Source: a virus
DNA length: 21,067 nt
Reading direction: 5' to 3' (one strand)
IMG/VR virus record: IMGVR_UViG_3300023172_000240
Span: 1-21,067 of that record
The first letter of the stretch is position 1. Each line of letters begins with the position of its first letter. Both the position numbers and the translations under genes were made by a program. Positions 6,047 through 21,067 of this stretch are shown in pieces. A model generated the notes under the pieces. That model was given only the letters and a program-made list of their open reading frames with translations. It had not been told where the DNA came from and searched no databases.

Positions 6047-6298
6047 ATGGACCTTAAAATTTACACACGCTCCCAGTGTTCTTTCTGTGAAAAACTGAAG
6101 ACTGTTCTAACCATGAACAATATTGGTTTTACTGAGTACCGATTGGGTTCTCATTTCACCCGTGAACAATTTCTTGCAGAATTTGGTAAGAATTCCACCT
6201 TCCCAAGAGTCATCAAAGATGGTAAACTTATTGGTGGATGCACCGAAACTCTTCGCCTTCTCCTCAGCGAGGGAGTGATTAAAAAAGAACGTATCTAA
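6047..6298 (+). CDS. Glutaredoxin
   Basis: The 83-residue protein has the full glutaredoxin pattern. A first strand (LKIYTRSQ) leads to the dithiol active site C11-S-F-C14. It is followed by the cis-proline motif T51-F52-P53 (TFPRV) and the glutathione-binding GG63-64 (LIGGCTE). It would reduce disulphides using glutathione; in phages such proteins commonly serve ribonucleotide reductase. It begins 37 bases after a strong terminator and has no clear ribosome-binding site. A paralogue that lacks the first active-site cysteine lies at 17003-17242; the two align without gaps over the active site and proline motif. Confidence 0.93.
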   Translation: MDLKIYTRSQCSFCEKLKTVLTMNNIGFTEYRLGSHFTREQFLAEFGKNSTFPRVIKDGKLIGGCTETLRLLLSEGVIKKERI

Positions 6299-17002: not shown

Positions 17003-17242
17003 ATGACAACAGCAGTAATCTATAGTAACGGCAGTCAAGAATGTGAACGCATTGCTTCTCTCCTGAGGTCTCTTGGTGGCGAGTTTCTAGAGTATAAACT
17101 TAATTGTCATTTTTCTCAGAGGGGTTTTGAGTCTGAGTTTGGGAAAGACGCAGAGTACCCCCAAATTAATATTGGATTCAAGCACATTGGTGGTATGAAA
17201 GAAACCTTACAGTATCTAAAGAATGAGGGAGCATTTGAGTGA
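17003..17242 (+). CDS. Glutaredoxin-like protein lacking the first active-site cysteine
   Basis: This 79-residue protein aligns without gaps with the glutaredoxin at 6047 over the key places. S11-Q-E-C14 stands where that protein has C11-S-F-C14. E51-Y52-P53 matches the cis-proline motif and GG63-64 the glutathione site (HIGGMKET). The usual nucleophilic first cysteine is therefore a serine and only the second is left, so normal thiol-disulphide exchange is unlikely. It might bind glutathione or a partner protein, or have become a structural part. It sits just before pebS with a GTGA overlap, amid tail genes. Confidence 0.8.
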   Translation: MTTAVIYSNGSQECERIASLLRSLGGEFLEYKLNCHFSQRGFESEFGKDAEYPQINIGFKHIGGMKETLQYLKNEGAFE

Positions 17243-17880
17243 GTTGGATTGGTTATCGTGATTTTCTAGTAGACACTCTAAAACTTACAGCAAAAGAACG
17301 CACACATAAAGTAGGTAAAGAGGGTGCTCTACTGGAATCGACTTTATATACAGGACCGCACATCTTAAAGTCTAGAGAGACTATCATTAGGCAAGGTCCT
17401 ACAGACATCTATAACAATATAGTATATCCAAAGACAGGTGAAGATATGCCCTGTCTTGGTATGGACTTGATGTGTTTCTTTGAGAAGAAGGTCATTATTG
17501 TTTTTGACTTTCAGCACCCCACCCCACATAAAGATTTCAATCATCCATTCATTCTATATTTGCTGAGTGACATGGTTGATAACACCAACAAAGATATTAG
17601 ATTCTTCGAGCCAGGAAATCATTTCTCTCGATACATTTATGTGCGGCAGTGTACTGTAGATGATATTCCATCACACTTGAATTCTTTCAAGAGATACGTC
17701 CGAGCATATGAAGAGTATCTAAACTTTGCCAAACCTATAGGTAAGGATGAGTCTATATACAAAGAGTTTGACAAGTACATGCTAGAACTAGACCCTGTTG
17801 CTGGATTTATGAGCAATAAGTTTGGAAAAGAATTTGCTGATACATATGTCAGAGATTTCCTGTTCTCGTATGCCGACTAA
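17239..17880 (+). CDS. pebS: Ferredoxin-dependent bilin reductase, PebS-like (phycoerythrobilin synthase)
   Basis: The 213-residue protein reads as a bilin reductase closest to phage PebS. TGPHILKSRETIIRQGPTDI is followed by NNIVYPKTGEDMPCLGMDLM and KKVIIVFDFQHP, then RFFEPGNHFSRYIYVRQC, FDKYMLELDPVAGFMSNKFG and VRDFLFSY. The two catalytic aspartates of PebS fall at D76 (GMDLM) and D185 (LDPV). The protein is about 20 residues shorter than PebS of phage P-SSM2 at the N-terminus, with a longer loop near residues 98-118. PebS takes biliverdin IXalpha through two reductions to phycoerythrobilin, using host or phage ferredoxin. PcyA/PcyX or PebA activity cannot be fully excluded without assay. 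It uses a GTG start overlapping the previous stop, and its own stop lies in a late box. Confidence 0.88.
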   Translation: MSWIGYRDFLVDTLKLTAKERTHKVGKEGALLESTLYTGPHILKSRETIIRQGPTDIYNNIVYPKTGEDMPCLGMDLMCFFEKKVIIVFDFQHPTPHKDFNHPFILYLLSDMVDNTNKDIRFFEPGNHFSRYIYVRQCTVDDIPSHLNSFKRYVRAYEEYLNFAKPIGKDESIYKEFDKYMLELDPVAGFMSNKFGKEFADTYVRDFLFSYAD

Positions 17881-17905: not shown

Positions 17906-18619
17906 ATGGCACTACCAAAGATTGCTACTCCAAAGCATCGCCTGAAATTGCATTCTGGTAAAGAAATCAGTTTCCGTCCTTTCCTTGTGAAAGAAGAGAA
18001 ACTTCTCTTACTTGCTATGGAATCAGAAGATGAAACTAACATCGTTGATACCATCACCCAGGTGGTGTCTAGTTGTACAGGTATGACTGAGGCAGAGGTA
18101 ACAAAACTCTCTACCTTCGACATCGAACTTTTGTTCCTGAACATCCGCGCCAAGTCTGTGGGTGAATCTGTTGATGTTAAAGTTACCTGTTCTGATGATG
18201 GTACGACTGAAGTCCCCTTGTCTATTCCACTGGACAAGATTAAGTTGACAACCAGTCCTAATCATGACATGAATATTATGTTGACCGACACAGTTGGTTG
18301 TTTGATGAAGTATCCTGCAATGGATACTTTTGTGAAGGTTAACTTCAGTGGCGAGAGCCCTTCGGTTGACCAGATTTTTGAACTTGCAGGTAGTTGCATC
18401 GATAAAATCTATGAGGGTGAACAGATTCATGACGCAAGTGATTCTACTAGCGATGAACTCCAAGAATTCCTGGGGCAACTGAACAGTGAGCAGTTTGGTA
18501 AGTTCCAAACATTCTTTGAAACTATGCCTAAGTTGTCTTACAGAACTAAGGTAACCAATCCTAATACAGGAAAGAAAGTTGATGTTGTACTTGAGGGTCT
18601 AGCATCTTTTTTCGGATAG
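17906..18619 (+). CDS. 26: Baseplate hub/tail assembly protein gp26-like
   Basis: The 237-residue protein opens MALPKIATPKHRLKLHSGKE and continues ISFRPFLVKEEKLLLLAMES, the opening of the T4 gp26 baseplate family (PF12322). This is followed by FDIELLFLNIRAKSVGESVD and a C-terminal SEQFGKFQTFFETMPKLSYR, then KKVDVVLEGLASFFG. T4 gp26 (208 residues) is needed to build the baseplate hub. The small ORF behind it and the slippery site at its end suggest it is the long-lived half of a tail-assembly chaperone pair. Confidence 0.85.
   Translation: MALPKIATPKHRLKLHSGKEISFRPFLVKEEKLLLLAMESEDETNIVDTITQVVSSCTGMTEAEVTKLSTFDIELLFLNIRAKSVGESVDVKVTCSDDGTTEVPLSIPLDKIKLTTSPNHDMNIMLTDTVGCLMKYPAMDTFVKVNFSGESPSVDQIFELAGSCIDKIYEGEQIHDASDSTSDELQEFLGQLNSEQFGKFQTFFETMPKLSYRTKVTNPNTGKKVDVVLEGLASFFG
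18607..18613 (+). other. Predicted -1 ribosomal frameshift site T TTT TTC at the end of gp26
   Basis: The heptamer T TTT TTC lies in gp26 phase (X XXY YYZ), with the stop codon TAG at 18617 only three bases on. Slipping back one base moves ribosomes into the frame of the 60-residue ORF at 18622, which has no in-frame stop before it. The product would be 299 residues: 236 of gp26 plus 63. A seven-base-pair stem (ACCTGAA 18635-18641 with TTCAGGT 18650-18656) follows, 21 bases downstream, farther than usual for a stimulator. The sequence is seen; frameshifting is inferred. Confidence 0.65.
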
Positions 18620-18621
18620 CG

Positions 18622-18804
18622 ATGATGTACAATAACCTGAACAATTACATTCAGGTCAATTTTGCACTGATGCATCATCATAAGTGGAGTTTAACTGAGA
18701 TTGAAAGTCTTATGCCTTGGGAACGAGACGTTTATGTCTCCCTGCTGTCAGCACACCTCAAGGAAGAAGAAAGGAAATACAGAGAACAAAACGCACTTAA
18801 ATGA
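18622..18804 (+). CDS. Small tail-assembly partner ORF (gp26 -1 frameshift extension, or separate gene)
   Basis: This 60-residue ORF opens MMYNNLNNYIQVNFALMHHH and contains KWSLTEIESLMPWERDVYVS. The pattern histidine, Trp-S-x-x-E-I-E-x-(M/L)-P-W-E-R is that of the short second products of tail-assembly chaperone pairs in contractile-tail phages (P2 gpE' / DUF6760 type). In cyanophage genomes the ORF at this place is sometimes named gp51; the similarity to T4 gp51 is not evident to me. No Shine-Dalgarno site precedes its ATG, so it may be made only by frameshifting from gp26 or by coupling. It ends in an ATGA overlap with the next gene. Confidence 0.75.
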   Translation: MMYNNLNNYIQVNFALMHHHKWSLTEIESLMPWERDVYVSLLSAHLKEEERKYREQNALK

Positions 18805-21067
18805 CCGTATTAAAATCACATAAGTTTATTAACCCCAATGTTACGGGAAGGAAGACCACCGTAACAATGATGGGGTCTAAACTTTTGTTGGCACAAAATA
18901 GAATTGGTGCCACAGTTTTTAGTATCGGTGAGCAATTCAAAGATGCTAAGGAAACTCAGATAGCAAGAAAGAAATGGTTGCTTGCTCAGGATAGAAAGGC
19001 AGACCAAGATTATAGATTCCGCCGCGACCAGCAGGCAGAGAATCAGATGGAGGGCGTTAAAGAAGCTGATAGTGCTTCCAAGCAGGATAAGGAGAAGGCA
19101 ATAAAAGGCGATGGGAAGACTGAGAAGAAAGCTAAGGGTTGGTTAGAAAAACTATTGGGTCCTTTCCTGGGAATCTTAGAAAGTATTATTAAACTTGGTG
19201 TTGTACTACCTGCACTTAAATGGATATCTGAACCAGGAAATAAAGAAACAGTAGAACGATTTGTTGAAGCAGCAAAGGTAGTCTTTGGTAAGATATACGA
19301 ATTTGCAAGTGGAAGCGTAGGTCTTCTCTTGGATGGCATCTCTGCCATGTTTGATAAGGACAAGAGTGCATGGGATAGATTCAAAGGATTCTTGAAGGTA
19401 CTTGCAGGTGTTGCAGGACTTATTGCATTGAAAGCATTGTTCAATCCTATAGGATTGATGACCACATTGTTTGATGCTATCGGTGGTCTATTTGATATGC
19501 TGACCGACAGGTTAAATACGGAGAAACCAAAGAAACCACAAGATGATGTAGAAAGGAATCGTCAGCAGAATGCCAAAGCACGGGAGCAGATGAATGCTAC
19601 CCAGAAACTTCGGGATGATATGAAGGCGAGGTATAAATTTAAGAACGATGAACAGTTAGACGAGTTTATTAAAAGAGCACGAGAACTCAAGCGTCAAACT
19701 GGACAAGCACCAACAAAGAAGCAGTTACAGTCACTGAGTAAGTCTGTACTGGATGACCTTCCTGCAACTGCCTTGGGTAAGTTGAAGAAGGAGGCACTGA
19801 AAAAGTTGGGTCAACTCGATGACCTCCGTAAGAAAGCAGTTGCCGAAGCAGTTAGACTGGGTAAACAAGCAGTTGACTTTGGACTGGAACAAGGTGCTCG
19901 TGCCAAGAGAGCAGTAACCAACTGGGCAGCAGACCAGTGGAAGAATATGATGAAGGGTGCCAGCACTGTTGCAGAGAAGTGGAAGGTAACTCAAGCAGCA
20001 ATGGGAGACCTTGCTGGTAAAGCATGGAACGCAACAAAAGATGAGTTTCTTAAGAGAGCAGAGCAACTTGGTGGACCTCTTCAAAAAGTAATCAAGGCAC
20101 TGAAGGGTCCTGTTGGCGAGAGAATCATGAAGTACATCCCCTATCTTGGGGACATACTGATGTTCGGTATGGATGTCATCAATGGCATTGATTGGAGACG
20201 TGCTCTCATTCGTAGTATTGCTGGTGCTGCTATTGATGCTGGTGCCACGGCACTTATTGGTGCATTGGTTGCTGCTACGCCATTGACTGGTGGTGCATCA
20301 ACAGCACTTGCAATTGCATTGACTGCTGCATACATGGGAGCAGATGCTGTTGGGGACTTCCGTACTATGTTCGGTGACCCGATTGCAGATAAGTTAGGGT
20401 TCCCTATGTTCTCTGGAGAGAAGGGAAAAACATCACAGACTGAACCCAACATTACACCTGCTTCGGAAGCGGCAATTGCAGAAGAGCAAGCGAAGATTAT
20501 TTCGGGCATTAACCCCGATGCAATAGCAAAAGTCCAGGCTTTGTCCGAGCAGGCAAAACTACAAGGACTAGAGGCAGGCGGTGTGCTGTCTGGCAACGCT
20601 GCTAAGTGGGCAGAGTTTTATGACTATGGTAAGACCGCAGGTGCAAAGTTCCCTGAGGTTGTCTCTGCACAGTTTGCATTGGAGTCTGGGTGGGGTAAGC
20701 ACCTGGCTGCAAAGAACAATTTCTTTGGTCTGAAGGGTACTGCTGGTATGGATGTGACAGTATCAAATACCAGAGAAGTCTATGGTGGTCAGGAAACTTA
20801 CGTCGATGCTGCCTTTGTAAACTTTGACACTCCCCTGGATTCTGTTAAGTATCTCGCCAAATTGTGGTACAAGGATTATAAGGGGTATAAGGGTATTAAC
20901 AATGCGGGCAATGCTATCCAAGCAGCAGCAATGTTGAAGCAACAGGGATATGCTACCGACCCCGTATATGCTGAAAGTCTGCAACGTCTGATAAGAGAGA
21001 ACAAGAAGACTACAGAAAAAGTTGCGAAGGGTAGTGTTACTTATCCCGAAGGAACCTATATGTCACC
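18801..21067 (+). CDS. Large tail/baseplate-hub protein with glucosaminidase-like domain (3' end outside the window)
   Basis: The frame stays open from ATG 18801 to the window end (755 codons seen). Residues 60-105 are charged and coiled-coil-like. Hydrophobic segments (GPFLGILESIIKLGVVLPAL; LAGVAGLIALKALF; AAIDAGATALIGALVAATPL) and long helical stretches resemble a tape-measure or hub protein. From about residue 605 a FlgJ/LytG-type N-acetylglucosaminidase domain is readable: PEVVSAQFALESGWGKHLAA, then KNNFFGLKG and YVDAAFVNFDT, with the likely catalytic Glu at 628 (ALESGWG). It would cut peptidoglycan during DNA injection. T4 has its tail lysozyme in gp5 and its tape measure in gp29; this combines features of both, which fits its place behind gp26. 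It overlaps the preceding ORF by four bases. Confidence 0.8.
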   Translation, partial: MTVLKSHKFINPNVTGRKTTVTMMGSKLLLAQNRIGATVFSIGEQFKDAKETQIARKKWLLAQDRKADQDYRFRRDQQAENQMEGVKEADSASKQDKEKAIKGDGKTEKKAKGWLEKLLGPFLGILESIIKLGVVLPALKWISEPGNKETVERFVEAAKVVFGKIYEFASGSVGLLLDGISAMFDKDKSAWDRFKGFLKVLAGVAGLIALKALFNPIGLMTTLFDAIGGLFDMLTDRLNTEKPKKPQDDVERNRQQNAKAREQMNATQKLRDDMKARYKFKNDEQLDEFIKRARELKRQTGQAPTKKQLQSLSKSVLDDLPATALGKLKKEALKKLGQLDDLRKKAVAEAVRLGKQAVDFGLEQGARAKRAVTNWAADQWKNMMKGASTVAEKWKVTQAAMGDLAGKAWNATKDEFLKRAEQLGGPLQKVIKALKGPVGERIMKYIPYLGDILMFGMDVINGIDWRRALIRSIAGAAIDAGATALIGALVAATPLTGGASTALAIALTAAYMGADAVGDFRTMFGDPIADKLGFPMFSGEKGKTSQTEPNITPASEAAIAEEQAKIISGINPDAIAKVQALSEQAKLQGLEAGGVLSGNAAKWAEFYDYGKTAGAKFPEVVSAQFALESGWGKHLAAKNNFFGLKGTAGMDVTVSNTREVYGGQETYVDAAFVNFDTPLDSVKYLAKLWYKDYKGYKGINNAGNAIQAAAMLKQQGYATDPVYAESLQRLIRENKKTTEKVAKGSVTYPEGTYMS

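Follow-up and report, generated by a model that had tools for sequence, protein, structure and literature searches.

The window, as we call the whole stretch of DNA analyzed here, comprises 21,067 nt (positions 1 to 21,067 of the IMG/VR virus record IMGVR_UViG_3300023172_000240). In DNA comparisons it matches phages of Synechococcus and Prochlorococcus best, and from its sequence the source is evidently a T4-like cyanomyovirus. T4-like cyanophages count among the most abundant viruses in the sea. The features at the locus studied are as follows:

17906 to 18619, + strand: gp26, putative short tail-assembly chaperone (TAC-N), 237 aa, frame 0 (PF12322, E=7.6e-66; phrog_150, E=2.8e-73)
18593 to 18597, + strand: GAGGG, Shine-Dalgarno-like, likely 5' stimulator, 9 nt 5' of the slip site (sequence and conservation)
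18607 to 18613, + strand: slippery heptamer T TTT TTC in gp26 phase (in phase, as TTTTTTC or TTTTTTT, in 179 of 179 relatives outside the Ackermannviridae)
18617 to 18619, + strand: gp26 stop TAG, read in the -1 frame within ATA GCG (sequence)
18620 to 18679, + strand: predicted downstream RNA structure, a long stem around a 7-bp hairpin, likely 3' stimulator (MFE -16.0 kcal/mol, z -3.43)
18613 to 18804, + strand: predicted -1 frame extension (TAC-C), 63 codons plus stop, annotated in relatives as gp51 from ATG 18622 (phrog_634, E=1.7e-26; C-terminal part of phrog_150)
18801 to 21065, + strand: next gene, a long protein with a glucosaminidase domain (PF01832, E=7.4e-19), candidate tape measure, running past the window end

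The gene at 18801 to 21065 may encode the tape measure protein; in HTVC008M, a gene annotated as a putative tail tape measure is found near the equivalent place, one gene further on. Immediately 5' of gp26 on the same strand lies a ferredoxin-dependent bilin reductase gene (17239 to 17880; PF05996, E=7e-20), an auxiliary metabolic gene adjoining tail genes. The window also holds two similar small glutaredoxin/thioredoxin-like ORFs (6047 to 6298 and 17003 to 17242), whose likeness was judged by eye and the second of which belongs to phrog_22.

The 3' end of gp26 reads GAG GGT CTA GCA TCT TTT TTC GGA TAG. Consistent with a preliminary description of this DNA, the T TTT TTC at 18607 to 18613 is in gp26 phase and three bases 5' of the stop, followed by GGA and then TAG, and a -1 slip there enters the 60-residue ORF with no intervening stop (CGG ATA GCG ATG ATG TAC..., stop at 18802 to 18804). 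The product sizes predicted in that description, 237 and 299 residues, are likewise correct, the fused product being 236 + 63 residues. The rarity of the heptamer was dropped as evidence, as it is common in AT-rich DNA and was found 7 times in the window against 5.9 expected; because the heptamer alone is common, what counts is its phase, its position and its conservation.

The check proposed in the preliminary description, whether cyanomyoviruses keep a T-rich heptamer and the -1 relation, was run and gave zero exceptions in 80 of 80 close and 179 of 179 wider relatives. Among the 80 viral-contig relatives (48-56% protein identity), TTTTTTC is always separated from the gp26 stop by three bases, whereas the codons on either side of it and the stop itself (TAG, TAA or TGA) are all variable, and gp51 is in the -1 frame in all 79 that were testable. 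The wider set, extended with loci related to Pelagibacter, Sinorhizobium, Stenotrophomonas, Vibrio and Aeromonas phages, consists of 179 loci outside the Ackermannviridae, forming 48 clusters at 70% identity; the Vibrio query against viral contigs returned zero relatives. Here the in-phase heptamer is T TTT TTC at 151 of the 179 loci and T TTT TTT at the other 28, and the gp51 domain is in the -1 frame for every relative whose sequence extends that far. The distance from heptamer to stop ranges from 0 to 24 nt (e.g. 0, 6, 9, 24), and a -1 slip still reaches the gp51 domain. At L107, L133, L152, L153, L155 and L167, the gp26 stop lies 24 nt past the heptamer, giving a longer frame overlap with the -1 relation kept.

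Codon choice points the same way. The residue before Phe-Phe may be S, N, A, D, T, G or H, and its codon ends in T in 179 of 179 loci (104 expected), with the first Phe codon being TTT at every one of them. From codon usage alone, the probability of these two features together is ~1e-74 over loci and ~1e-19 over the 48 clusters, the cluster figure being the fairer because the loci are related, with locus counts not independent and the clusters themselves not fully so. LASFFG at the gp26 end also forms a codon-conservation peak second to that at the gp26 start. The phase of the heptamer, its placement at the end of gp26 and its conservation are far beyond chance.

The 60-aa ORF (18622 to 18804) matches phrog_634, the gp51 family named "baseplate hub assembly catalyst", at positions 60-117 of 121; it also matches the final 43 positions of phrog_150, the family of gp26, implying that part of the gp26 family already has this domain fused. 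The C part is predicted to fold as a segment of three helices (pLDDT 80). In the window, gp51 has an ATG ATG two bases past the gp26 stop and, as described previously, the small ORF has no ribosome-binding site, with no Shine-Dalgarno sequence of use 5' of ATG 18622. Across relatives, 57 of 178 loci (23 of 47 clusters) offer no ATG, GTG or TTG from the slip site to the gp51 core, and in 32 further relatives of the 178 the start is limited to GTG or TTG; an ATG with an SD-like sequence precedes the core at a single locus of the 178. Where gp51 lacks any start codon, frameshifting is its sole plausible route of expression. The residues conserved in the -1 frame, R-[ILV]-[AGS]-x-x-H-x-x-L, moreover begin before or at the gp26 stop, and they start 5' of any possible start codon.

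Likely stimulators of slippage flank the heptamer on both sides. An SD-like sequence lies upstream in 164 of 179 loci and 42 of 48 clusters, compared with 11% of control windows, and the Glu codon at this position is GAG in 123 of 144 cases versus 29% elsewhere in gp26 (Fisher p ~2e-43; 7e-7 on clusters). At loci with GAA instead, the next Gly codon is mostly GGA or GGG, also able to pair with 16S rRNA. The spacing of GAGGG in the window, 9 nt, falls inside the range of 9-14 nt given for SD-like stimulators of -1 frameshifting (PMC5009743). Downstream, the 7-bp stem-loop noted previously is present (ACCTGAA/TTCAGGT, 18635-18641 with 18650-18656), and a 60-nt fold starting 6 nt past the heptamer has a z score against shuffles of -3.4 in the window and a mean of -1.9 over 47 clusters, whereas control offsets gave -0.4 to 0.0. 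The 107-nt downstream fold in the window is not unusual (z -0.10). A single conserved downstream RNA structure was ruled out, as none of hairpins A, B and C fits more than a minority; the hairpins are lineage-specific, 54 of 92 thinned sequences fit none of the three, and the downstream structure had no Rfam match. Within the hairpin A group (ATGGC...GTCA), offsets 13 and 27 pair as T-A in 16 sequences, G-C in 9, A-T in 5 and other in 2, which are compensatory changes involving a synonymous wobble base. Together, the SD-like element, the heptamer and the downstream folding look like a dnaX-type cassette.

We consider it very probable that gp26 and the 60-residue ORF together form a single tail-assembly-chaperone gene, with the long form made via a -1 frameshift. 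We infer from sequence the occurrence of slippage, its rate, the products, their binding partners and the chaperone role, and decoding might proceed as follows. Most ribosomes would end at the gp26 stop and yield the short TAC-N of 237 aa. On some, the P- and A-site Phe tRNAs would re-pair one base back at T TTT TTC (TTT TTC to TTT TTT), a slip that may be aided by pairing of GAGGG with 16S rRNA 9 nt 5' and by the hairpin beginning ~7 nt 3' of the heptamer, and this slipped fraction would go on in the -1 frame to produce the long TAC-NC of 299 aa. If lambda gpG/gpGT is a guide, binding of the tape measure protein would fall to the N part and recruitment of tail tube subunits to the helical C part.

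T4 appears to carry the same pair in another arrangement. In T4 gp51 (249 aa), the PF12322 match covers residues 1-201 and that to phrog_634 (gp51/TAC-C) residues 147-246, and hhalign places the gp51/TAC-C profile at residues 207-244 (E=2e-5). Because T4 gp51 is a gp26-like domain plus TAC-C, the cyanophage "gp51" corresponds to only the C-terminal part of T4 gp51. Our gp26 is homologous to T4 gp26 throughout (hhalign E=1.7e-19); when the gp26 profile was aligned with T4 gp51 by single-sequence hhalign, only a short off-register stretch was returned, and the gp26-to-T4 gp51 homology is therefore taken from Pfam and PHROGs. On sequence grounds, T4 gp26 is the short form and T4 gp51 the fused long form as its own gene, and the window, whose gp51 ORF is a 60-aa extension only, unlike T4's two full-length genes, seems to belong to the frameshifting branch of the gp26/gp51 family (PF12322, phrog_150, phrog_634). 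At the end of T4 gp26 (L090:4803-5429), Phe-Phe is kept as TTC TTT; in T4, which has a separate gene for the long form, the heptamer has thus disappeared. This agrees with the earlier remark that T4 itself is not known to frameshift here. A 58%-identical relative (L206) has G TTT TTT at its gp26 end, perhaps a slip-site remnant. In the Ackermannviridae (L088; L185-L199), the heptamer is absent and only U_UUC is seen, inside GAR ATT TTC ATT TAA; a gp51-like domain (phrog_9633; phrog_634, E=0.0028) is found in the -1 frame directly past gp26, unannotated in L088 (3226-3402), and ATTTTCATTTAATTTTTGAAATTGATTTA is invariant among the relatives listed, down to 70% protein identity.

Two other explanations of the locus were weighed. 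Separate proteins could be made if gp51 were translated by termination-reinitiation at ATG 18622, with GAGGG holding the ribosome on the message. The ATG ATG right past the gp26 stop makes such coupling possible at this one locus, SD-like sequences near gene ends can serve it (PMC5009743), and gp51 is annotated in public records as a gene in its own right. Coupling nevertheless gives the heptamer no reason to persist and has no start to use in the 57 relatives without one (and GTG or TTG at best in the 32 others), and it sits poorly with a -1 relation that is kept as the stop shifts by 0-24 nt, with the conservation of -1 frame residues 5' of the ATG, and with T4 making the fused protein from one gene; we regard it as very unlikely. 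Still less credible is transcriptional slippage at the T run, by which mRNAs of varying U number would give the fused protein through normal translation. A homopolymer of six or seven T is the kind of signal this calls for, but the bacterial runs cited are of 9 A or T (PMC5009743), the run here is of six followed by C in 151 of 179 loci, codon phase is strictly kept, and an SD-like element with downstream hairpins suits slipping of the ribosome rather than of the polymerase.

Given a ribosomal -1 frameshift, what its products do is a further question, and they could be structural baseplate-hub subunits rather than tail-assembly chaperones. Annotations mostly name gp26 as baseplate hub, genetic work placed gp26 in the T4 hub (PMC3004832), and a significant match to a solved chaperone is absent, a profile search of solved structures having given no match. 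Direct homology to lambda gpG or T was not detected by hhalign. The AlphaFold2 model of gp26 (pLDDT 88.9) matches mainly other gp26 proteins among viral structures. The HK97 tail-assembly chaperone 2OB9 is in the list of fold matches with both chains, one of them having the highest probability in the PDB matches listed (0.44; TM 0.51 on target), at E=2.8, which is not significant. The same source that reviews the genetics, however, counts gp26 and gp51 with the hub assembly chaperones as well, T4 gp51 being needed for assembly and absent from the final particle (PMC3004832). The short/long two-form arrangement beside a candidate tape measure gene, the HK97 chaperone among the fold matches, though not significant, and the assignment of the T4-like chaperones by Vladimirov et al. 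(2022), known to us through papers citing it, also speak against hub subunits, an alternative that we consider unlikely. The best reading is that gp26 acts as the short tail-assembly chaperone and that the frameshift gives the long form, mainly because of the two-form arrangement, the assembly-only role of T4 gp51 (PMC3004832) and the published assignment.

Sampled public records split this gene in two, shorten its second part or omit it. None of 13 phage records examined (T4 and lambda not among them) annotates a joined gp26+gp51 CDS; gp51 is omitted in those of ACG-2014b and ORM_20, its start is annotated too late in those of HTVC008M, Sf-CH8 and Melnitz, and other records list it as a gene of its own. 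The finding would settle the identity of "gp51" in these cyanophage genomes and offers a clear comparison with T4, where the same long protein comes from a separate gene.

How far the locus departs from what has been described can be judged from earlier work. The 2022 abstract of Vladimirov and colleagues reportedly describes frameshifting as retained by several T4-like groups and names genes 26 and 51 as those used in T4. Later papers credit Vladimirov, Gautam & Davidson 2022 (Virology 566:9-15) with identifying the T4-like phage chaperones; one such paper refers to poly-T signals known in the TAC-N genes of these phages and another to a separate fusion gene used by some of them (PMC12846349, PMC10885494). 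In 2016, G-T frameshifting had been called widespread "except T4" (PMC5009743). The preliminary description's proposal of a T4-family version of the frameshifted chaperone is thus supported by conservation and domains, with chaperone function deduced, but such frameshifts in T4-like phages were already published in 2022, and the window locus is, on its sequence, a well-supported further case. In the literature searched, where the 2022 study was represented by citing papers, we found no mention of the SD-like element, the lineage-swapped hairpins or the Kyanoviridae counts. A wider picture is tentative, and we would put it at somewhat below even chances: Kyanoviridae and allies may rely on a complete dnaX-type cassette (comprising an SD-like element, T TTT TTC and a hairpin swapped between lineages with its place kept), perhaps making far more long form than lambda's 30:1, the Ackermannviridae may have lost the heptamer and may frameshift at a bare U_UUC tetramer, and T4 may have turned to gene duplication, for three decoding solutions for one chaperone pair in one related phage group.

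Among known systems, the T4-like chaperones identified in 2022, as far as citing papers describe them, are the closest, sharing the gene family, the poly-T -1 frameshift and, in some, the separate-gene solution. T4 itself has a homologous gp26 and a gp51 co-linear with the fused product, and differs in its two separate genes, on opposite strands and without the heptamer. Lambda gpG/gpGT, like the pair here, is a short chaperone with a -1 frameshifted long form, lambda's lying directly before the tape measure and made at a short:long ratio of about 30:1 (PMC5009743), but there is no detectable sequence similarity, and slip site and extension are both different. E. coli dnaX shares the 5' SD-like element, the homopolymeric heptamer and the 3' hairpin; its signal is A AAA AAG with a stem-loop and its product is shortened, whereas here the product would be lengthened and the hairpins are lineage-specific. 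Finally, the Vandenendeviridae/Andersonviridae TAC locus of phage Adele also has a conserved T-rich -1 site at the TAC-N 3' end and a C part mis-annotated as a separate gene, though its motif is GTTTTT and its phage lineage a different one (PMC12846349).
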